In this document: positions 31,675 to 41,531 of the stretch, piece by piece
Position numbering within the stretch: the first letter of the stretch is position 1
Layout of the letters: each line of letters opens with the position of its first letter
Origin: Cyclobacteriaceae bacterium
Lineage (GTDB): Bacteria > Bacteroidota > Bacteroidia > Cytophagales > Cyclobacteriaceae
Assembly: GCA_019638285.1 (NCBI GenBank)
Contig: JAHBUB010000010.1
Location: 42,205-106,204 of the forward strand
Length of the DNA: 64,000 nucleotides
Direction of reading: 5' to 3'
Position numbers and translations under genes: made by a program
The notes under the pieces: model-generated
The model's database searches: none
Seen by the model: the letters and a program-made list of their open reading frames with translations, nothing else
What the model was told of the DNA's origin: nothing

Positions 31675-33006
31675 CTACTTAATTAAACGCTCCAACTTTT
31701 GGTTCACAACATCAAATTGGAAAGATTGAATTTCCGTGTTCATCATTCTCTGAATTTCGTCATTGCATAAATTACCTATGCTTCCTTCGTGGGTGTGAGT
31801 GAGGTTTTCAGAATGATTGAATTCTCCTTTTGCAATAGACTGCCCAATTATTCTGTATGCATCCCGAAAGGGAATGCCTTGCAGCACCAATTTGTTTACT
31901 TCCTCTACACTAAATAAGTATTTGTATTTTTCATCCTTTAACAAATCTTGTTTCACTTCTACATTGGAAAGCATCAAGTGCGTCATGCGTAAACAATCTT
32001 TTAATTGACTGAAGGCAGGAAATAGCTTTTCTTTGAGTAGTTGTAGGTCTCTATGATACCCTGAAGGTAAATTTGTGGTGATTAGGGTTATCTCTTGCGG
32101 TAATGCCTGAAGGGTGTTGCATCGGCTTCGAATCAACTCAAATGCATCCGGGTTTTTCTTGTGAGGCATAATACTGGAGCCTGTGGTAAGTTCCTCCGGA
32201 AAACTGATAAATCCAAAGTTTTGGTTGAGGTACAGACAGGCGTCCATCGCTAGTTTGCTCAGGGTGCTGGCTACATTGCTGATTGCAGCGGCCACCACCT
32301 TTTCGGTTTTGCCCCTTCCCATTTGAGCATACACTACATTATAGTTGAGGTCACTAAAGCCGAGTAACTCAGTGGTCATTTTGCGATTGAGTGGAAAGGA
32401 TGATCCATATCCTGCAGCAGAACCTAACGGATTTTTATTGGTGATTTTGTAAGCGCTTTGTAGTGAGATCACATCATCTACAAGGCTTTCCGCATAGGCG
32501 CCAAACCACAGCCCGAAGGAAGAGGGCATGGCCAATTGCAAATGAGTGTAGCCGGGAAGTAGTGTGTCTTTATGTTTTTCACTGAGTGAAATGAGTAAGT
32601 CGAATAGTTTCTTTGTTTCATTGACCAACTCCTGAATCTCATTTCTGAGAAATAACTTGATATCCACCAGCACCTGATCGTTCCGTGAGCGGCCGCTGTG
32701 GATCTTTTTTCCGATTTCACCAAGTTGAGAGGTAAGTATCATTTCAATTTGGGAGTGAATATCTTCTACTCCCTCTTCGATCTTAAAATTTCCATTCAAG
32801 ATTTCTTGAAAGATCTCTTTTAGTGCTGAGGTGAGTTTATCCAACTCACTTTTTTCAAGGAGCCCAATGGATGCAAGCATTTCAATGTGGGCAAGTGACC
32901 CCAGCACGTCAAAAGGTGCAAGAAACAAATCCAGCTCATTGTCTTTCCCTATGGTAAATTGACTTACTTCCTTTAGTGCGTCTTTATCTTTTTGCCAAAG
33001 CTTCAT
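31675..33006 (-). CDS. argH: Argininosuccinate lyase
   Basis: Splits argininosuccinate to arginine and fumarate, the last step of arginine synthesis (EC 4.3.2.1). 443 residues. The fumarase-superfamily signature GSSIMPHKKNP near residue 270 contains the catalytic Ser loop, and HSGRSRNDQ near residue 105 and YTHLQLAMP near 155 are also diagnostic. It is the last gene of the arginine operon, 4 bp after the deacylase gene. Confidence 0.96.
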   Translation of the reverse strand: MKLWQKDKDALKEVSQFTIGKDNELDLFLAPFDVLGSLAHIEMLASIGLLEKSELDKLTSALKEIFQEILNGNFKIEEGVEDIHSQIEMILTSQLGEIGKKIHSGRSRNDQVLVDIKLFLRNEIQELVNETKKLFDLLISLSEKHKDTLLPGYTHLQLAMPSSFGLWFGAYAESLVDDVISLQSAYKITNKNPLGSAAGYGSSFPLNRKMTTELLGFSDLNYNVVYAQMGRGKTEKVVAAAISNVASTLSKLAMDACLYLNQNFGFISFPEELTTGSSIMPHKKNPDAFELIRSRCNTLQALPQEITLITTNLPSGYHRDLQLLKEKLFPAFSQLKDCLRMTHLMLSNVEVKQDLLKDEKYKYLFSVEEVNKLVLQGIPFRDAYRIIGQSIAKGEFNHSENLTHTHEGSIGNLCNDEIQRMMNTEIQSFQFDVVNQKLERLIK

Positions 33007-33010
33007 ATGC

Positions 33011-34084
33011 TTAATACCTGGGTTTTAATTCCTGAGCCAGCAACCTGATCAGTTGAATGTAATCTAAAGTTCCGTTTTTAATCTCATCAAGATAAATGAA
33101 TTCATCAGCAGCATGAGATCGAGCGGAGTCGCCAGGGCCCATTTTGATGGAAGGTACAGGGATCAGTGCCTGATCTGAAGTGGTAGGAGATCCGTACATT
33201 TCTTTTTTTAATAGTTGCCCTGCTTTGACCAATGGATGTTGCCTATCAATTCCTGATGGACGCAACCTGACACTTCGCGGTTTCACTTCACATGACACAT
33301 TCTCTTTTATAATGTCTATTACTTCCTCGAGGGTATAAGCATCAGTTACCCGACAGTCAACTGTAAACTTACATTCTTCCGGTGCTTGGTTGTGAGCTTG
33401 TCCGGCTTGTATGATGGTGACTGACATTTTAACATCACCCAGTGTAGGCGATGTTTTTGGGAATTTGAAATCGCGAAACCACACGATGTCTTTCATGGCT
33501 TTGTAGATGGCATTTTCTCCTTCTTCTCTGGCTGCGTGCCCAGCCTTGCCTTTACTCACACAGTCCAAAACCAAAAGTCCTTTTTCTGCAATGGCAATAT
33601 TCATTCCTGTAGGCTCACCAACAATCGCAAAATCAATATCGGGTAGATCATTCCAGATGCTTTCTATTCCGCCTGATCCTGATATTTCTTCTTCGGCAGT
33701 AGCAGCCATCACTATATTAAATGGGAGCGATTCATGTGAATCGAAGTGCAGGAAGGTGGCAATGAGTGAAACCAAGGCACCGCCCGCATCATTGCTTCCC
33801 AAACCAAAGAGTTTCCCCTCTTCAATGGAAGGAGAGAAAGGATTTCGGGTATACCCAGCATTGGGCTTCACGGTATCATGATGTGAATTGAGAAGTAAAG
33901 TTGGTTTTTTCACATCGAAGTGACGATTGATCGCCCACACATTGTTGCCTAATATTTCAGGTTTAATGCCTCTCGAGGAGAAAAAATTGGCAATAGCATC
34001 TCTGGTGTTGTCCTCCGTTTTACTGAAAGAAGGAATAGCAATGAGTTGCTTTAGTAGGTTTGTTGAGAGGCTTTCTTGCTCCAT
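33011..34084 (-). CDS. M20 deacylase of arginine synthesis (acylcitrulline/acetylornithine deacetylase type)
   Basis: 357 residues from ATG at 34084 (a GTG one codon earlier overlaps the argB stop). The M20 metal site is intact: LLNSHHDTV near residue 82, GSNDAGGALVSLI, ATAEEEISGSGG, VGEPTGMNIA and a C-terminal HAADEFI. Because the operon encodes an acyl-ornithine carbamoyltransferase, the likely substrate is N-acetyl- or N-succinyl-citrulline rather than acetylornithine (inference from pathway logic). It lies between argB and argH with gaps of 2 and 4 bp. Confidence 0.85.
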   Translation of the reverse strand: MEQESLSTNLLKQLIAIPSFSKTEDNTRDAIANFFSSRGIKPEILGNNVWAINRHFDVKKPTLLLNSHHDTVKPNAGYTRNPFSPSIEEGKLFGLGSNDAGGALVSLIATFLHFDSHESLPFNIVMAATAEEEISGSGGIESIWNDLPDIDFAIVGEPTGMNIAIAEKGLLVLDCVSKGKAGHAAREEGENAIYKAMKDIVWFRDFKFPKTSPTLGDVKMSVTIIQAGQAHNQAPEECKFTVDCRVTDAYTLEEVIDIIKENVSCEVKPRSVRLRPSGIDRQHPLVKAGQLLKKEMYGSPTTSDQALIPVPSIKMGPGDSARSHAADEFIYLDEIKNGTLDYIQLIRLLAQELKPRY

Positions 34085-34086
34085 CA

Positions 34087-34878
34087 CTATTTGCGAATCA
34101 ATGTGCCTTCAGTTTCTTCTCCCATATTTTTGGTAAGATCCGATGCGCTTCCAATCAATACTTCATTGACTCCACTACGCAAGGCATCAAATGCATTTTC
34201 AAGTTTGGGTAGAATACCATCAAATAGTACTTTTTGTTCCAGTAATTCATCGTAGGATTTGCTATCCATGTTTTTGATTACAGATTCTTCATTCTTGATA
34301 TCCGTAAGTACTCCTTTTTTCTCAAAGCAGTAGATTACTCTGATTTGAAAATGTTTACTCAGTGCCACAGCTAATACGGAAGCAATGGTATCAGCGTTGG
34401 TATTCAGTATGCCATGTTCAGGGCTATAAGTAAGTGGGGCAAAGACGGGGATTATATTTTGCTTCAGTAGAAAATAAAGGAATGAAGTATTGACATCTTT
34501 TGGCGCAATGTCCCCTACAAACCCAAAATCAATTTCACCAACAGGGCGCCTGGTAGCCTTAATTACATTTCCATCAGCACCTGTTAGCCCCATCGCATTG
34601 CATTGATGTGCTTGCAATTGGGTTACAATCTGTTTATTGATCAAACCACCATATACCATTGTAACAAGATCCCGAGTAGGCCCATCGGTTATGCGTCTGC
34701 CGTTAAAGTAGTTGGATTCGATACCCAACTGATTGCCAATTTTGGTGGCAATCTTTCCGCCTCCATGAATTAAAATTTTTGGATACTGAATGCTGGCAAA
34801 GTCTTTAAGAAAGGAAGCCAAGGCGACCTCGTCATCCAAAACATTTCCACCTATTTTAATGATATACAGCTTTTGCAT
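34087..34878 (-). CDS. argB: Acetylglutamate kinase (acyl-glutamate kinase)
   Basis: Phosphorylates the gamma-carboxylate of N-acylglutamate with ATP (EC 2.7.2.8). 263 residues, amino-acid-kinase fold. Visible are IKIGGNVLDD at the N-terminus (ATP-binding Lys), LIHGGGKIATKIGNQLG near residue 40, and NTNADTIASVLAVALS near residue 165. It lacks the extended N-terminal helix found in hexameric arginine-inhibited enzymes, so it is probably not feedback-inhibited by arginine (inference). Confidence 0.95.
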   Translation of the reverse strand: MQKLYIIKIGGNVLDDEVALASFLKDFASIQYPKILIHGGGKIATKIGNQLGIESNYFNGRRITDGPTRDLVTMVYGGLINKQIVTQLQAHQCNAMGLTGADGNVIKATRRPVGEIDFGFVGDIAPKDVNTSFLYFLLKQNIIPVFAPLTYSPEHGILNTNADTIASVLAVALSKHFQIRVIYCFEKKGVLTDIKNEESVIKNMDSKSYDELLEQKVLFDGILPKLENAFDALRSGVNEVLIGSASDLTKNMGEETEGTLIRK

Positions 34879-34880
34879 GA

Positions 34881-35831
34881 TTAATTATTTTTAAGGATTT
34901 CTGATAGTACCGCTTGCGCAGCCCAAACTCTGTTGCCGGCTTGTTGGATGACAATGGATTGAGAACCATCTAACACTTCATCTGCGATTACTAGGTTTCT
35001 CCGCACCGGAAGACAATGCATTACTTTTGCCTTATTGGTGCCGTCCAGTTTTTTGTTTGTCATCATCCATGCTGGTTCAGTATTTAACATCTGCCCATAT
35101 TTTTCGTAGGAAGACCAGTTCTTTACATACACAAAGTCTGCTCCTTGAAGCGCTTTGTCCTGATCGTATTCGATGGTACTACCACTGGTAAATTTTTTAT
35201 CCAGCTCGTATCCTTTAGGGTGCGTAATAACAAAATCCACCTCATCCCAATTGCCCATCCATTGAGCAAATGAGTTAGGTACTGCTTGTGGTAAGGGTTT
35301 GATGTGTGGTGCCCATGTTAATACTACCTTGGGCTTTTTGGAGGTGCTGAGTTCTTTTATGGTCACGGCATCAGCAAGACTTTGTAGTGGATGTAATGTT
35401 GCGCTTTCAAGGCTTATCACAGGTACACCCGCATATTTCACAAATTGATTGATGTAGTGTTCACTGTAATCTTCTTCCTTGTTAATGAGTTCGGGAAATG
35501 TTCTGATTCCGATAATGTCAAAGTATTGACCCATTACGGAAGCGGCTTCTTTCACATGTTCTGCCTTGGTTCCCGTCATCACGGCCCCATCTTCAAATTC
35601 AAGTTGCCAGCCTTCCTTATCCAAATTAAAAACAATCACTTCCATTCCCAGATTGCGCGCAGCCCGTTGAGTACTGATGCGGGTGCGCATACTTGGATTT
35701 AGAAATATCATTCCCATTGTTTTGTCTTGTCCAAGCAATTTGTCTTTAAATGGATTGACTTTATAATCCAGCGCTGATTGAACGAGTGCTTTGTAGTCGG
35801 TTACACTTTCGATGGATAAAAAATGTTTCAT
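34881..35831 (-). CDS. argF': N-acyl-L-ornithine carbamoyltransferase
   Basis: Transfers the carbamoyl group to N-acetyl- or N-succinyl-ornithine, giving acylcitrulline. 316 residues. NPSMRTRIST near residue 45 is the carbamoyl-phosphate loop, HPLQSLADA near 147 is also typical, and MHCLPVRRNLVI near 270 is the acyl-ornithine form; normal OTCases have HCLP without VRRN. From memory, the residue that separates succinyl (Pro90, Bacteroides fragilis) from acetyl (Glu92, Xanthomonas) enzymes aligns with Ala90 here (GTKAEH), so the acyl group cannot be assigned from that site. Confidence 0.92.
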   Translation of the reverse strand: MKHFLSIESVTDYKALVQSALDYKVNPFKDKLLGQDKTMGMIFLNPSMRTRISTQRAARNLGMEVIVFNLDKEGWQLEFEDGAVMTGTKAEHVKEAASVMGQYFDIIGIRTFPELINKEEDYSEHYINQFVKYAGVPVISLESATLHPLQSLADAVTIKELSTSKKPKVVLTWAPHIKPLPQAVPNSFAQWMGNWDEVDFVITHPKGYELDKKFTSGSTIEYDQDKALQGADFVYVKNWSSYEKYGQMLNTEPAWMMTNKKLDGTNKAKVMHCLPVRRNLVIADEVLDGSQSIVIQQAGNRVWAAQAVLSEILKNN

Positions 35832-35832
35832 G

Positions 35833-36810
35833 CTAGTGAACGGTTGCTTTTAATTTCAATCCAGCGGTTTCATCCAGTTCGAACATTAGATTCATGTTTT
35901 GAACCGCCTGGCCGCTTGCACCTTTTAAAAGGTTGTCCGTAGCAGTGTGGATGACCAGATTACCTTCAACCTTTTCCAGATGAATAAGGCATTTGTTGGT
36001 GTTGACTACTTGTTTCAAATCGATCATCGTTTCAGACACATGCGTGAAAGCAGCCGACTTGTAGAAAAAGCTGAATAACTGACAGGCTTCTTCCAGTGAA
36101 AGTGAGGACTTCATCACGGAGCTCACATAGATGCCTCGGCTGAAAGCTCCTCGCCAAGGAACAAAATGGATCGCCTCTTCAAATTGAGGTTGAAGGCCTT
36201 TTAACGTTTGATTGATTTCTTTGAGGTGTTGATGGGTCAGGGTTTTATACGCAGAAACATTATTGGCTCGCCAACTGAATTGAGAGGTCTCCTGTAGTTT
36301 TTGGCCTGCTCCGGTTGAACCAGTGATACCTGTAGTATGTACCTCACCAAGTAGGCCTTGACTGGCCAATGGCAATAATCCCAGTTCTATTGTAGTGGCA
36401 AAACATCCGGGGTTGGCAATGTTATTAGCTTGTTTTATTTTTTCTTTTTGCAACTCAGGGAGACCATATACAAAATCACGCTGCTCTGATTTTTCACCTA
36501 AGCGAAAGTCCTGACTTAAATCAATGATCCTGGTTGTCAGTGGTATGTCAGCTTCGGCTAAGAAGACCTTGCTTTCCCCATGTCCGAGGCAAAGGAATAT
36601 CACATCGGCTTCGTGTTGATGTGTATTACTGAATGTAAGATCACAGTCTCCAAACAAATCACGATGGAGGTCAGACACTTTTTTACCAGCCTGACTGCGA
36701 CTTTGAATAAAAGCGATTTCAACATGAGGATGATTGACGAGTAAGCGTATCATTTCCCCTCCGGTGTAGCCGGCTCCTCCTACTATTCCTGCTTTTATTT
36801 TACTTTCCAT
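35833..36810 (-). CDS. argC: N-acetyl-gamma-glutamyl-phosphate reductase
   Basis: Reduces the acylglutamyl phosphate made by ArgB to the semialdehyde using NADPH (EC 1.2.1.38). 325 residues from ATG at 36810 (MESKIKAGIVGGAGYTGGE, Rossmann start); an upstream ATG at 36822 adds four residues. The catalytic Cys is in NPGCFATTIELGLLP. The start lies 11 bp inside argG, so translation is coupled. The next step, acylornithine aminotransferase (argD), would normally sit between argC and the carbamoyltransferase but is absent; only 1 bp separates the two genes. Confidence 0.95.
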   Translation of the reverse strand: MESKIKAGIVGGAGYTGGEMIRLLVNHPHVEIAFIQSRSQAGKKVSDLHRDLFGDCDLTFSNTHQHEADVIFLCLGHGESKVFLAEADIPLTTRIIDLSQDFRLGEKSEQRDFVYGLPELQKEKIKQANNIANPGCFATTIELGLLPLASQGLLGEVHTTGITGSTGAGQKLQETSQFSWRANNVSAYKTLTHQHLKEINQTLKGLQPQFEEAIHFVPWRGAFSRGIYVSSVMKSSLSLEEACQLFSFFYKSAAFTHVSETMIDLKQVVNTNKCLIHLEKVEGNLVIHTATDNLLKGASGQAVQNMNLMFELDETAGLKLKATVH

Positions 36811-38005
36811 TTTTTGCTTCATGCATTACCTGATGATAAATCATCATTTGATTACCAAATACTTTTGAGAATCCCCGCACATCCTCTCCGGTCCATCCCA
36901 GATTCATTTCTCCATACTTTCCGAATTTGGAGGACATCAAGTCAAAAGGTGAGTTGATCCCATTGATTTGAAAACGATGGGGAAACAGAGTGATGGACAC
37001 TTCGCCTGTTACGTTCTGTTGTGAGTTGCTAAGAAAGGCTTCTATGTCCCGCATAATAGGATCAAGGTATTGCCCTTCGTGCAGCCAGTTGCCATAGAAC
37101 TGACTGAGTTGTTCTTTCCAACTGAGTTGCCATTTGGTAAGCACATGTTTCTCTAACGCATGGTGCGCCTTGATGATAAGTACAGGAGCAGCCGCTTCAA
37201 ATCCTACACGTCCTTTTATTCCTATGATAGTATCACCTACATGCACATCTCTGCCAATCCCAAAGGGTCCCGCTATCTTTTGAAGATAGTGAATGGCATC
37301 TACCGGATGCTCAAAATTTTTATTGTTGATTTTTACCAATTCCCCTTTGTCGAAAAGTAGTTTTACATCTTCAGCCTCAGTTTTAGTAATGGGGGTGGGC
37401 CATGCTTCCTCGGGCAACATACCCATGGATTGAAGCGTTTCCTTTCCCCCCACCGAAGTGCCCCACAGTCCTTTGTTGATGGAATACCTGGCCTTTTCGA
37501 AATTAAAAACAACGCCTTTCGATTTGAGGTAATCAATTTCTTCTTCCCGGCTGAGTTGGTTGTCGCGGATAGGAGTGATGATTTCCTTGTCGGGAGCCAG
37601 TACATGAAAAATCATATCGAAACGCACCTGGTCATTGCCAGCACCTGTGCTTCCGTGCGCAATAGCGGTTGCGTTGATTTCATTGGCATAGTTTGCTATG
37701 GCCAATGCCTGAGACATGCGTTCTGCACTTACACTTAATGGATAGGTACTATTTTTAAGTACGTTTCCAAAAATCAAATAACGAATTACCTTTTCGTAGT
37801 AATTTTTTGTTTCGTCCACCGCTTTATGTGATGTCGCACCTAGCTTAAGTGCGCGTTTTTCAACTTCATCCAATTCTTCATTGCTGAACCCTCCTGTGTT
37901 TACAATGAGCGTGTGTACTTCATATCCAAGGTCATCGCTTAACAATTTGGCACAATAGGAGGTGTCAAGACCACCGCTAAATGCTAATATTACTTTTTTA
38001 TTCAT
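36800..38005 (-). CDS. argG: Argininosuccinate synthase
   Basis: Joins citrulline and aspartate with ATP (EC 6.3.4.5). 401 residues. The PP-loop LAFSGGLDTSYC is at the N-terminus, and GSTGAGNDQVRFD near residue 118 is the citrulline/ATP site. It overlaps the GNAT gene stop as TAATG and the argC start by 11 bp, making it second in the operon. Confidence 0.96.
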   Translation of the reverse strand: MNKKVILAFSGGLDTSYCAKLLSDDLGYEVHTLIVNTGGFSNEELDEVEKRALKLGATSHKAVDETKNYYEKVIRYLIFGNVLKNSTYPLSVSAERMSQALAIANYANEINATAIAHGSTGAGNDQVRFDMIFHVLAPDKEIITPIRDNQLSREEEIDYLKSKGVVFNFEKARYSINKGLWGTSVGGKETLQSMGMLPEEAWPTPITKTEAEDVKLLFDKGELVKINNKNFEHPVDAIHYLQKIAGPFGIGRDVHVGDTIIGIKGRVGFEAAAPVLIIKAHHALEKHVLTKWQLSWKEQLSQFYGNWLHEGQYLDPIMRDIEAFLSNSQQNVTGEVSITLFPHRFQINGINSPFDLMSSKFGKYGEMNLGWTGEDVRGFSKVFGNQMMIYHQVMHEAKNGK

Positions 38006-38796
38006 TACCAGAAGAAGATTTTAAATAATACATTGGCAGGCTTCTTTGCCTCGTTTTTCTTTCTTTCCTTTAGCATCACAAATTTTTTGAGTCTTACCCA
38101 GCGCTCAAATAATTTGAAATTGCCCTTGAATTCCCTCTTGCGTTTTTTACGAACACGCCCCTTGGAGGTAACAACGGTAGTTGTTGCAGGCATTTCAACT
38201 TTTGCCGCTTCTTTAACAGGATCGAAAAGCATGGCCGTACAGATGCAATTTTTACGTTGCTTCATGGTGAGAATGTCGAAGTTGACACAACTCTGGCAGC
38301 CTTTCCAGAAGCCCTCATCAGTAGTGAGTTCAGAATAGGTGACGGGCTTGTAGCCCAGACCTGAGTTGATCTTCATCACAGCGAGGCTGGTGGTAAGGCC
38401 AAAGATTTTGGAGTTAGGATATTTTTTGCGGGAGAGATCAAATATTTTGCTTTTGATTTCTTTAGCAACACCTGTGTTTCTGAAGGCGGGAGAAACTACC
38501 AGCCCGGAGTTGGCTACAAATTTTTCATGGCCCCAAACCTCGATGTAGCAAAAGCCAACCCAGGTGTTGTCGGTGGTAATTGCAATAATCGCCTTACCTT
38601 CTTCAATTTTCTTTCTTATGTATTCAGGTGATCGTCTTGATATGCCCGTACCGCGCACCTGGGCGGATAGGGCCATCTCCTCTGTGATGGTTTCGGAATA
38701 ATGCATATCGTCTGGAGTGGCCAAACGAACAATAATATTATGATCGCTCAATTTCTTAAAATTAAAGGGTGACAAAATAGAGATGTGCCAAAGCAC
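38005..38796 (-). CDS. GNAT acetyltransferase, candidate acyl-glutamate synthase
   Basis: First gene of the arginine operon. The 263-residue frame starts with GTG at 38796; TTG at 38751 (LSDHN) is an alternative start. The GNAT fold covers residues ~20-160, with the acyl-CoA loop VVSPAFRNTGVAKEI at ~100-115. It has an unusual Cys cluster C167-x2-C170-x13-C184-x-C186, then a basic linker and tail (residues ~195-263). No argA or argJ is in the operon, and a GNAT protein in this position is what Bacteroidota use to begin arginine synthesis as far as I recall, so N-acylglutamate synthase is the best guess. The Cys cluster may bind metal. Confidence 0.72.
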   Translation of the reverse strand: MLWHISILSPFNFKKLSDHNIIVRLATPDDMHYSETITEEMALSAQVRGTGISRRSPEYIRKKIEEGKAIIAITTDNTWVGFCYIEVWGHEKFVANSGLVVSPAFRNTGVAKEIKSKIFDLSRKKYPNSKIFGLTTSLAVMKINSGLGYKPVTYSELTTDEGFWKGCQSCVNFDILTMKQRKNCICTAMLFDPVKEAAKVEMPATTTVVTSKGRVRKKRKREFKGNFKLFERWVRLKKFVMLKERKKNEAKKPANVLFKIFFW

Positions 38797-38802
38797 TAAA
38801 GA

Positions 38803-38825
38803 CGAAATGCCATTACTGCATTTCG
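38803..38825 (-). promoter_or_regulatory. Hairpin just before the arginine operon start
   Basis: CGAAATGC, a 7-nt loop, GCATTTCG: a perfect 8-bp stem followed on the minus strand by TCTTT, then the GTG start. It resembles a weak terminator or translational block in the operon leader. Confidence 0.5.
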
Positions 38826-38826
38826 C

Positions 38827-38848
38827 ATAGTCATACAGATTTGACTAT
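38827..38848 (-). promoter_or_regulatory. Second leader hairpin of the arginine operon
   Basis: ATAGTCA, 8-nt loop, TGACTAT: a perfect 7-bp stem directly after the leader ORF stop codon. Confidence 0.45.
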
Positions 38849-38849
38849 A

Positions 38850-38888
38850 TCAAATACGGATTTGCCTTCGTATGCGCCTTATGGCCAT
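38850..38888 (-). CDS. Putative arginine-rich leader peptide MAIRRIRRQIRI
   Basis: ATG at 38888 to TGA at 38850 encodes 12 residues with five Arg codons (AGG, CGC, CGA, AGG, CGT). It lies 54 bp upstream of the first codon of the arginine operon and is followed by two perfect hairpins. The design matches leader peptides that sense an amino acid by ribosome stalling. Against this, the same frame stays open upstream to at least a TTG at 38987 and there reads protein-like residues (ESAGRTGLGIFAEGKLIDIL), so it may be the tail of a gene relic. No Shine-Dalgarno is visible. Confidence 0.4.
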   Translation of the reverse strand: MAIRRIRRQIRI

Positions 38889-39022
38889 AGAAGTAGAGGT
38901 GAAAAGGATATCAATGAGTTTCCCTTCGGCAAAAATGCCAAGGCCTGTGCGGCCTGCGGACTCAATGTATGTTGATGTGTTTTTCAATTCCTTTATTGCT
39001 TAGAGTGCATCCTTCTGTGGTA

Positions 39023-39030
39023 CAAATGTA
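39023..39030 (-). promoter_or_regulatory. Putative -7 promoter box for the arginine operon
   Basis: TACATTTG on the minus strand fits TAnnTTTG. If used, it gives a ~220-nt leader containing the Arg-rich ORF and hairpins. Confidence 0.45.
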
Positions 39031-39122: not shown

Positions 39123-41531
39123 TTACTCCTTTAAAGTACTTGTTGGGTTAGTGAGTGCAGCTTTTATAGATTGGATACTTACGGTGAGAAGGGTAATGAG
39201 TGCAATCAGTAAGCAAGCTTTCAGGTATATGAGCGGACTTATATCAATTCGATAAGCAAAGGTAGAGAGCCACTGGCTTGCTGCGTAGTAACTTATTGGA
39301 ATTATTATCACAAAGGCAATAAGGATGAGTCCAAAATATTTTCTTGTAAGCAGTAGCACCAATGAATTGACGCTGGCACCAAAAACTTTTCTAATACCAA
39401 TTTCCCGCACTCGCTGATTGACGCTGTACTCCACCAATCCAAACAGTCCCATGCAGGCCACCAGGATGGCTAAACCGGAAAAAATAGTGAAGAAGACAGA
39501 GAGCTTTTCTTCCGACTTGTACATTGCCTCAAAATTGCTATCCAGAAATTTATAGCTGAATGGAATATCAGGTATTAGTTTTTCATAGGTGGCCTTACAA
39601 AAAGCAATGGTGGATGCCATATCTTCAGGTTTAATTTTTAGGGTGAGTGTAAAGTAGGCGGGCGGAAAGATTTGCAAAACTACTGGTGACAACTGTTCGC
39701 GCAAGCTTTTGAAATGAAAATCCTTCACCACCCCAATCACTTCCCCTCTTTTGATGGTGTCACCTTCCCATTTTTTCCACATGTCCCAGTTTAGGGGATG
39801 GCCAATTGCTTCTTCTGGAGTGCCAAACCCAAAGACCTTAACAGCAGTTTCGTTGAGGATGAAACCCCTTTTTGTATCTGTCCCAAAATCTTTGGAGAAA
39901 TCTCTGCCGGCAATAATTTCAAGCCCAAGAGTCTTTACATAGTCAAAATCTACACAAAACATGTTGGTGGGAAGTTCTTTGTTCATAGTGGGATCGGTTA
40001 CCCCATCTCCCGCAACAATATCTCCGGGAAGCCCATAACCTACTGTGGCATGGGTGATATTAGAATTGCTAAGAAATCCCTGCTTTATAGCTTCGAAATT
40101 TGGGAGCGCTGCTTTATTAAGATCCAACACCATCAACTGATCTTTATTAAAACCCAAGTCCTTATTATGAAGCAGATTGTTTTGGGATAGCACAATCATC
40201 GACCCTGTGATCAGAAAAAATGAAAACATAAACTGGAGTACCACCAGTGTATTTCTATAGAAGACAGTTTCTTTTTTTGCACTATTTCGATTGTAAATAG
40301 CTGCCGCTGGACGAAACCGAGAAAGCTGAAAGGCGGGATAACTTCCGGCTAAAGTACCGAGGATTAACACAAAGGCCATTATGCCCAAAGTGAATTCAAG
40401 GCTAAATGGTGAGGCGATTGATTTCCCTGTAAATTCATTAAGGTAGGGGAAAGCCATTTGCGCAATCCCAATAGCAATCAAAAACCCCATGCTCGTAATT
40501 ATTACGGATTCACTTATGAATTGTGTGATGAGTTGGAAGCGAAAGGCACCGGCCACTTTGCGAATACCTACTTCTTTCATTCGCTTGATGGAGCGAGCAG
40601 TAGAAAGATTGATGAAATTCAAGGAGGCAATCAGCAGAATAAATATTGCAGTGCCGCTTAATACATAGATAGATTGGGCATTGCCTCGTTGGGCAATCTC
40701 CCACTCGAAATTAGAGGAATGAAGATGGATGTCTTTAATGTTTTGAATACGGGGAGTGTAAACAAAACCACTTGGCTTAGTAACCGGATGGCCGTATTTC
40801 TTTGCGAAATCGTCCAGTTTACCTTCAAACTGATTTGCGGATGTGCCCTGTTTGAGTTTTACATAGGTAAAAAATTGTTGCCAACTCCAGCTTTCGATCC
40901 TTTCACTGGAAATAAATTGAGAGAATGTAGCAAATGACATGATGTAATTGACTTGAAGGTGTGAGTTGATCGGCAACTCATCGAACACCCCTGTAACCTG
41001 GAAGTCATAATCAGAAATTTTTATTACCTCTCCTACGGGATTTTTATCTCCAAAGTATTTTTTTGACAACAATGCTGAAAGCACCACCGTGTTAGCTTTA
41101 TTTAAAGCAGAATTTTGATCTCCATACTTCAAATGAATGGTAAGCATGTCAAACACAGTCGGTTCAGCATAGATTCCTTTTGACTCTTTGATCTTTTCTC
41201 CTTCATACTCAAAAAGTTTAGCACCATAGGTGTCCAAGATCCTTAGGGTGGATTCTACCTCGGGATAGTCGTTTTGTAAAGTAGGACCAAAGGTGGGTGG
41301 AACAATGGGCAGGTAACTGGTTACCCCATCATCTCCAGTTCTAATATTATAAATCCTGAAAGTACGATCCGCATCGGGATGGTAGTTATCAAAACTGAGT
41401 TCATCCCACACATAAATAGAAATCAACAGACAGGAAGCTATACTGATTGCCATTCCTGCGATGGTGATGAAAGAAAAAAGCTTATGCTTTAACAGGTTTC
41501 TGATTCCGATTTTGAGGTAGTTTGAAATCAT
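39123..41531 (-). CDS. FtsX/MacB-like ABC transporter permease (1)
   Basis: 802 residues, one of five paralogues in the window. Layout: N-terminal TM (LFSFITIAGMAISIASCLLISIYVW, ~17-42), MacB-type periplasmic core (~45-280), three TMs (~290-400), a coupling-helix-like motif RMKEVGIRKVAGA after the first of these, a fourth TM (~430-450), a second periplasmic core (~455-675), and C-terminal FtsX TMs with REIGIRKVFGAS. Such proteins work with a cytoplasmic ATPase of the LolD/MacB type in mechanotransmission or export; no ATPase gene is in the window. Probably transcribed alone (132 bp from the next paralogue). Confidence 0.88.
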   Translation of the reverse strand: MISNYLKIGIRNLLKHKLFSFITIAGMAISIASCLLISIYVWDELSFDNYHPDADRTFRIYNIRTGDDGVTSYLPIVPPTFGPTLQNDYPEVESTLRILDTYGAKLFEYEGEKIKESKGIYAEPTVFDMLTIHLKYGDQNSALNKANTVVLSALLSKKYFGDKNPVGEVIKISDYDFQVTGVFDELPINSHLQVNYIMSFATFSQFISSERIESWSWQQFFTYVKLKQGTSANQFEGKLDDFAKKYGHPVTKPSGFVYTPRIQNIKDIHLHSSNFEWEIAQRGNAQSIYVLSGTAIFILLIASLNFINLSTARSIKRMKEVGIRKVAGAFRFQLITQFISESVIITSMGFLIAIGIAQMAFPYLNEFTGKSIASPFSLEFTLGIMAFVLILGTLAGSYPAFQLSRFRPAAAIYNRNSAKKETVFYRNTLVVLQFMFSFFLITGSMIVLSQNNLLHNKDLGFNKDQLMVLDLNKAALPNFEAIKQGFLSNSNITHATVGYGLPGDIVAGDGVTDPTMNKELPTNMFCVDFDYVKTLGLEIIAGRDFSKDFGTDTKRGFILNETAVKVFGFGTPEEAIGHPLNWDMWKKWEGDTIKRGEVIGVVKDFHFKSLREQLSPVVLQIFPPAYFTLTLKIKPEDMASTIAFCKATYEKLIPDIPFSYKFLDSNFEAMYKSEEKLSVFFTIFSGLAILVACMGLFGLVEYSVNQRVREIGIRKVFGASVNSLVLLLTRKYFGLILIAFVIIIPISYYAASQWLSTFAYRIDISPLIYLKACLLIALITLLTVSIQSIKAALTNPTSTLKE

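Follow-up and report, generated by a model that had tools for sequence, protein, structure and literature searches.

The arginine operon and its leader region

The window, that is, the whole 64,000-nucleotide stretch that was analysed, carries an arginine operon on its minus strand, preceded by a leader region on whose other side an 802-codon ORF ends at 39123. The gene order is GNAT, argG, argC, N-acetylornithine carbamoyltransferase, argB, an ArgE/DapE-type deacylase, which scores below its family cut-off, and argH (Table 1). Judging by the gene spacing, the genes from GNAT to argH would form a single transcript. GNAT most likely starts at TTG 38751 rather than at GTG 38796, as suggested by an alignment of 25 loci in which TTG or GTG is conserved at that place. 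Both the leader ORF (38987) and GNAT (38751) apparently begin with TTG in an A-rich context. The loci gathered for this GNAT number 298, including some duplicates (loci are designated L and genomes G, each with a number); in a set of 235, again with a few duplicates, argG lies downstream of GNAT 210 times.

Table 1. Features of the leader region and the arginine operon, with positions in the window
Feature	Position	Strand	Basis
Possible -33 element, TTG	39055-39053	-	sequence
Promoter -7 box, TACATTTG (TAnnTTTG type)	39023..39030	-	sequence; TAnnTTT invariant in 25/25 aligned loci
Leader ORF, TTG start, 45 codons, LKNTSTYIESAGRTGLGIFAEGKLIDILFTSTSMAIRRIRRQIRI then stop	38850..38987	-	sequence, alignment, synonymous-only change at end
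Hairpin P0, AGGCC-GCACA-GGCCT, inside leader ORF	38941..38955	-	terminator-like, tail TGGCATTTTT
12-codon ATG frame, MAIRRIRRQIRI then stop, forming the conserved, Arg-rich last part of the leader ORF	38850..38888	-	codon comparison
Hairpin P1, CAAAT-CCGT-ATTTG, over last Arg codon and stop	38851..38864	-	sequence, RNAalifold
Stem 1, ATAGTCA/TGACTAT, after stop	38827..38848	-	sequence; different-sequence stem in L031
Hairpin T1 (regions 3:4), GCGAAATGC/GCATTTCGT, +23 from stop	38802..38826	-	sequence, shuffles
Small hairpin P3, GTGC-TTTG-GCAC	38785..38796	-	similar GTGC/GCAC stems in some relatives
GNAT N-acetyltransferase, first operon gene	38005..38751	-	one weak NCBIfam match, far below cut-off
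argG, argininosuccinate synthase	36800..38005	-	TIGR00032, above cut-off
argC, N-acetylornithine carbamoyltransferase, argB, ArgE/DapE-type deacylase, argH	31675..36822	-	rest of the operon

Upstream of the leader ORF, the promoter box proposed in a preliminary description of this DNA is present and invariant in its core (Table 1). It fits TAnnTTTG, which we take to be the consensus of the Bacteroidetes promoter -7 box. Positions 39010-38993 of the window read ATGCACTCTAAGCAATAA, and a conserved GAATGCCTTTTATCTAA-like 5′ end occurs in many relatives (L004-L009, L018-L022); in several relatives it can be read as a tiny ORF encoding MPFI.

Three hairpins lie 3′ of the leader stop in the window (stem 1, T1 and P3). 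The stems CAAAT/ATTTG, ATAGTCA/TGACTAT and GCGAAATGC/GCATTTCGT, all described beforehand from the letters, were found at their minus-strand places. In a MAFFT alignment of 23 loci, RNAalifold recovered P1 as the sole stem, with five pairs, one of them changed on both sides. Within the leader ORF, P0 has a terminator-like form with a TTTTT-containing tail. Stems of other sequence at a P0-like position gave a weak signal, both in 24 loci of the genus (mean z 1.1, with z at least 1.5 in 7 of 24) and in 63 Flavobacteriaceae-type regions (mean z 1.4). Neither the window nor 16 related loci matched any Rfam family, T-box included, at gathering score.

Selection on the Arg codons and their recurrence across the phylum

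The 12-codon ATG frame had been put forward as a candidate arginine-sensing leader. Its sequence and Arg codons stand as described, but it is not supported as the conserved unit: among the 25 aligned loci, which come from the genus and its close kin and include one near-identical pair, L002 and L031, ATG 38888 occurs only in L001, L029, L030 and L033, whereas TTG 38987 is present in all 25. We therefore rejected the ATG frame as the whole leader and assign its Arg codons to the end of the 45-codon TTG frame. By reading of the alignment, 24 of the 25 loci have the TTG and the Arg end in one frame; in L007 the leader frame is broken, unlike that of its close kin L006, which is either real or an assembly error. 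Arg codons of the leader ORF stand at 38951, 38879, 38876, 38870, 38867 and 38858, five of them within the last nine codons before the TGA stop at 38850.

Changes at the end of this frame are mostly synonymous. Counted pairwise, so that the events are not independent, the differences number 26 synonymous and 0 non-synonymous in the final 11 codons of five sequences including the window (L002, a near-copy of L031, being omitted), 340 against 17 in the final six codons of 18 sequences of the RRQIRI clade, and 183 against 100 in the final four codons of 22 distinct Flavobacteriaceae-type ends. In all three comparisons the other two frames changed mostly non-synonymously. In the alignment of the relatives, conservation is limited to the Arg-rich end and the first half is freely variable, a pattern expected of a leader peptide with essential Arg codons. 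The same alignments give no sign that the frame is the remnant of a longer gene. When these 320 nucleotides of the window were dinucleotide-shuffled 2000 times and the ends of all ATG, GTG and TTG frames were counted, an equally dense Arg cluster, five in eight codons near the frame end, arose in 4 of the shuffles.

Arg clusters recur upstream of GNAT well beyond the genus. For a first test, 234 regions from the first 235 loci were cut to 100 non-redundant ones. The mean Arg cluster was 2.98 as against 1.57 in shuffles, with a z of 18.6, a value inflated, like the phylum-wide one below, because relatives are not independent. At least four Arg in eight residues occurred in 37 of the 100 regions, where 1.5 were expected, and 63 fell below that density. 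The largest scores of other residues were those of Val (z 3.4) and Ile (z -3.4). The antisense strand showed a slight excess (mean 1.86 versus 1.57 in shuffles), with at least three Arg in 22 regions versus 64 in sense and at least four in 4 versus 37. A phylum-wide set of 63 regions, cut to 47 non-redundant ones and sharing some genomes with the set of 100, gave an Arg z of 10.8, Pro being the next residue at z 3.7; at least four Arg were found in 19 of the 47 regions versus 1.6 expected, and in 2 on the antisense strand. As a specificity control, we took regions upstream of hisG. Within the genus, at least four His in eight residues occurred in 14 of 16 loci and four Arg in one of 16; in other families a His cluster was found in two of five loci. 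The claim that a peptide with Arg codons precedes the arginine operon is supported by codon-level selection and by the recurrence of Arg clusters in the phylum.

The peptides themselves differ. Their ends vary by clade and include RRQIRI, RRPHRGIRI, RRRP, FRV, HTTPFRFRS.RT., RIPRRR and others. At several GNAT loci, for example L217, L219, L221, L224, L225, L245 and L254, a clear leader is absent. Two loci of one Flavobacteriaceae genus (L274 and L277) have leaders with NRPxTSPEVRML, in which Arg is spaced rather than clustered, and these may work differently. Short ORFs are frequent in general, and the frame could in principle encode a functional small protein or have arisen by chance with no relation to arginine. 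We regard this as scarcely credible: Arg alone is strongly enriched, the first half of the frame varies, and the peptides differ among families. Taken together, the evidence, all of it computational, makes it very likely that the frame encodes a genuine arginine leader peptide, of a type widespread in Bacteroidota and with a non-canonical read-out.

We also searched for the arginine repressor. No ArgR was found in 192 genomes sampled in the order, the window's own genome (G000) included; the same search was positive in 8 of 14 control genomes, one of them a Bacteroides. This speaks against an ArgR regulon in the window's genome. In a phylum sample of 247 genomes, ArgR was present in 92, this GNAT in 103 and both in 3, a split that largely follows lineages, so that a Fisher test overstates it. 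One of the three (G248) is a weak partial match; the other two, G436 and G444, have ArgR immediately upstream of GNAT. At the latter two loci (L298 and L294), the only ones at which Arg leaders were examined in ArgR-bearing genomes, the stretch before GNAT is mostly ArgR itself and holds at best 3 and 1 Arg in eight residues. This distribution suggests that ArgR and the Arg leader may replace each other at the arginine operon.

Candidate read-outs of the leader

With its Arg codons against the leader stop, the frame, if translated, would make the ribosome a sensor of charged tRNA-Arg, a role for the codons that we hold to be highly probable. When arginine is plentiful, the ribosome would reach the stop and depart, and the operon RNA would be cut short or destroyed; when arginine is scarce, it would park on the Arg codons, holding the end of the ORF and the hairpins, and the operon would be expressed. 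This direction of control, from shortage to expression, follows the logic of a biosynthetic operon and is probable, if slightly less so than the sensing itself. The overall explanation, a leader peptide with the ribosome as arginine sensor, we consider likely.

In classical attenuation, a ribosome stalled at the Arg codons would leave region 2 (38859-38851) available for pairing with region 3, at the expense of the terminator T1 (3:4). Hairpins resembling T1 are indeed found at +20 to +33 from the stop in 26 loci, their sequence changing and their place kept. They were identified locus by locus, which is weaker evidence than an alignment, since RNAalifold recovered P1 only. In a weak test against shuffles, the window's T1 was matched by 3 of 100, and 13 of 25 loci lay at or below 5 of 100, the other 12 above. 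The terminator, T1 and switch tests were all run on 25 loci, without L002, L007 and L017; of these loci, L029-L031 and L033 come from named MAGs.

The terminator that such a mechanism requires is mostly lacking. Of the His leaders scored in the genus, 14 of 14 are followed by a canonical intrinsic terminator (z at least 3), with a mean score of 41.7 and a mean z of 6.5; among the Arg leaders the count is 2 of 25, with a mean score of 21.5 and a mean z of 1.6. The 14 are those of the 16 genus hisG loci that have a His leader, L348 and L356 having been dropped and the partial loci L357-L359 of G013 left unused. Thus the preliminary idea of a terminator hairpin is not supported, with the reservation that the window's T1, with its tail TCTTTAGTG, stands at z 2.9, just under the cut, where a few others also lie. 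A listing of terminator-like sites in the window contains none at T1. Among Arg leaders of other clades, represented by the first 60 non-redundant loci outside the 25-locus list, 3 of 60 have a canonical terminator. The hisG locus of the window's own genome (L353, on contig C23 of G000) fits the textbook picture of a his attenuator, its His leader, which ends in NNHGHHHHHISHIWSGWPMF, being followed by a strong intrinsic terminator, and the hisG loci of the same genus among L336-L356 show the same arrangement.

The spacing of the control codons also differs. Measured in regions with at least four Arg (42 of 100) or at least four His (16 of 21), the last Arg codon lies a median of 2 codons from the stop, 29 of 42 within three, as against a median of 11 for the last His codon, with 0 of 16 within three (14 from the genus, 2 from other families). 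Since the Arg codons abut the stop, the spacing needed by a classical switch is compressed.

Equilibrium folding gave a mixed picture. A switch between 2:3 and 3:4 pairing is predicted in L033 (0.07 to 0.84), L029 (0.16 to 0.99), L031 (0.25 to 1.0) and L004 (0.01 to 0.59), and also in L015 and L022. None is predicted in L018, L019, L021, L111 and L112, and the reverse is predicted in L006, L008 and L016. In the window no switch is predicted either, the modelled P(3:4) being 0.93 to 0.97 in every state of a transcript ending after T1, but the best predicted fold of a longer window stretch pairs region 2 with region 3. By reading of the alignment, a G-to-A difference in the window's region 3 weakens the 2:3 pairing. 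Averaged over loci, the predicted P(3:4) was 0.64 with the ribosome stalled and 0.79 with it at the stop. The alternative pairings noted in the preliminary description are not conserved in the relatives. The second CAAAT copy, a candidate antiterminator part, is lost in L033, L029, L030 and L031 by reading of the alignment; the CGCATA/TATGCG pairing, the other candidate, is kept in L033 and L029 (with G-U) and broken in L030 and L031. With 23 of 25 loci below the terminator cut and all His leaders above it, the compressed spacing and the uneven predictions, classical attenuation appears unlikely, the conserved place of T1, its borderline score in the window and the switches predicted in six loci notwithstanding.

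Masking of the GNAT start was likewise considered and rejected: its predicted openness differs by more than 0.2 between the stalled and stop states in 0 of 24, 0 of 70 and 0 of 42 loci. With a canonical terminator and start masking both set aside, the remaining candidates are termination by a factor, decay of the RNA, and a weak terminator missed by the score.

Other clades carry conserved RNA motifs at the leader. Several Cytophagales families other than the window's have, after the hairpin at the stop, a second one with the apex CCUAYGnGG. In a 36-locus alignment, 95.6% of cells pair, a figure partly built in because the loci were chosen for having the stem (at least five consecutive stem pairs at CTAYG, with seven near-copies removed by hand), and 68 two-sided changes were counted against 17.6 in shuffles; sliding destroys the pairing signal. 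A model of this motif matched in 17 of 98 genomes of the order, once per genome and with GNAT adjoining in 17 of 17; five of the matches lie outside the training alignment (G034, G039, G041, G080 and G102), G034 having a near relative inside it. The model found no match in the window's genome. Many Flavobacteriaceae loci (59 of 108) share a nearly invariant post-stop hairpin, UGGAAWUAGGUGnGUCCAWUUCC, and a search with this pattern matched in 20 of 149 genomes of the family, again once per genome and with GNAT adjoining in 20 of 20.

Two further readings were weighed. TnaC and SpeFL are arrest peptides that sense their own ligands, and the nascent peptide might similarly sense free arginine or ornithine itself. 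The strong conservation of RRQIRI before the stop in the window's clade and of RRRP in Flavobacteriaceae would suit such an arrest; however, conservation is confined to clades, the peptides of the phylum have Arg and little else in common, and the RRRP end falls inside a conserved hairpin, which together make nascent-chain arrest quite improbable. Alternatively, the position of the ribosome could govern decay or processing of the operon RNA. Hairpins flank the stop, and in two other clades the second of them has a conserved apex and no U tract; a precedent is offered by Salmonella orf34-speF and RNase G, as described in PMC6386406. We consider decay or processing a doubtful candidate, on a level with classical attenuation and with a weak, non-canonical terminator that 2:3 versus 3:4 pairing would switch.

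Premature, factor-dependent termination of the Rho type we rank first among the read-outs, tentatively. The genome has a rho gene, and C exceeds G in 88 of 100 leaders versus 25 of 100 GNAT coding stretches, most strongly just after the second, CCUAYGnGG-type hairpin (33% C and 7% G in 39 loci). Against this reading, the window's own leader is not rut-like, ranking at percentile 41 within the window, and a shortage of G ahead of start codons may be a general trait. In its broadest form, the proposal is that ArgR-less Bacteroidota have widespread terminator-less Arg leaders, at which a parked ribosome and clade-specific hairpins would control Rho or an RNase; this we put forward as a possibility with somewhat less than even support. 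If true, it would explain, in a form open to testing, how a large group of ArgR-less Bacteroidota sense arginine, and would suggest that repressor and leader peptide are interchangeable at one operon. It would also add conserved RNA motifs to which these scans found no Rfam counterpart, and provide a natural matched pair within one genus, a His leader with a terminator and an Arg leader without.

Relation to known systems

The his, leu and thr operons are controlled by ribosome-mediated leader-peptide attenuators, and the Gelfand and Lyubetsky groups have reportedly carried out earlier comparative work on attenuation. Like those attenuators, the Arg leader is an ORF rich in the pathway's own amino acid, placed directly before the operon and followed by hairpins. 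Unlike them, most Arg leaders have no canonical terminator, and their control codons abut the stop. Because a terminator was tested for and not found, being borderline in the window, we place the Arg leader as a variant outside the classical attenuators. Other arginine responses are of a different kind: ArgR, a DNA-binding protein, has no match here, and arginine T-boxes are described in other bacteria in PMC1262725.

Within Bacteroidota, leader-peptide attenuation before amino-acid biosynthesis operons was inferred in Flavobacterium psychrophilum (PMC9723704), and the section of that paper on conserved structured elements names pheA and hisG and no arginine operon. Leader-peptide-like sORFs are reported in 5′ UTRs of B. 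thetaiotaomicron in PMC7366714. An arginine leader in Bacteroidota appeared in no title among the matches listed in our literature search, subscription journals, preprints and supplements lying outside its scope.

Sensing of arginine by leader-peptide Arg codons has precedents elsewhere. According to PMC13009471, Arg codons in the leader peptide of Staphylococcus aureus rbfL report arginine shortage; there the gene controlled is a biofilm regulator, through blocking of its ribosome binding site. A further likeness is to Salmonella orf34, a member of the SpeFL family upstream of speF, in which, as set out in PMC6386406, arginine is sensed through consecutive Arg codons in the leader ORF, with Rho and RNA folding as read-outs. 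By the same account, orf34 differs in that it controls a decarboxylase, encodes a single conserved peptide domain (DUF2618) and belongs to gamma-proteobacteria, and its sensing Arg codons occupy positions 12 and 13 of 34.
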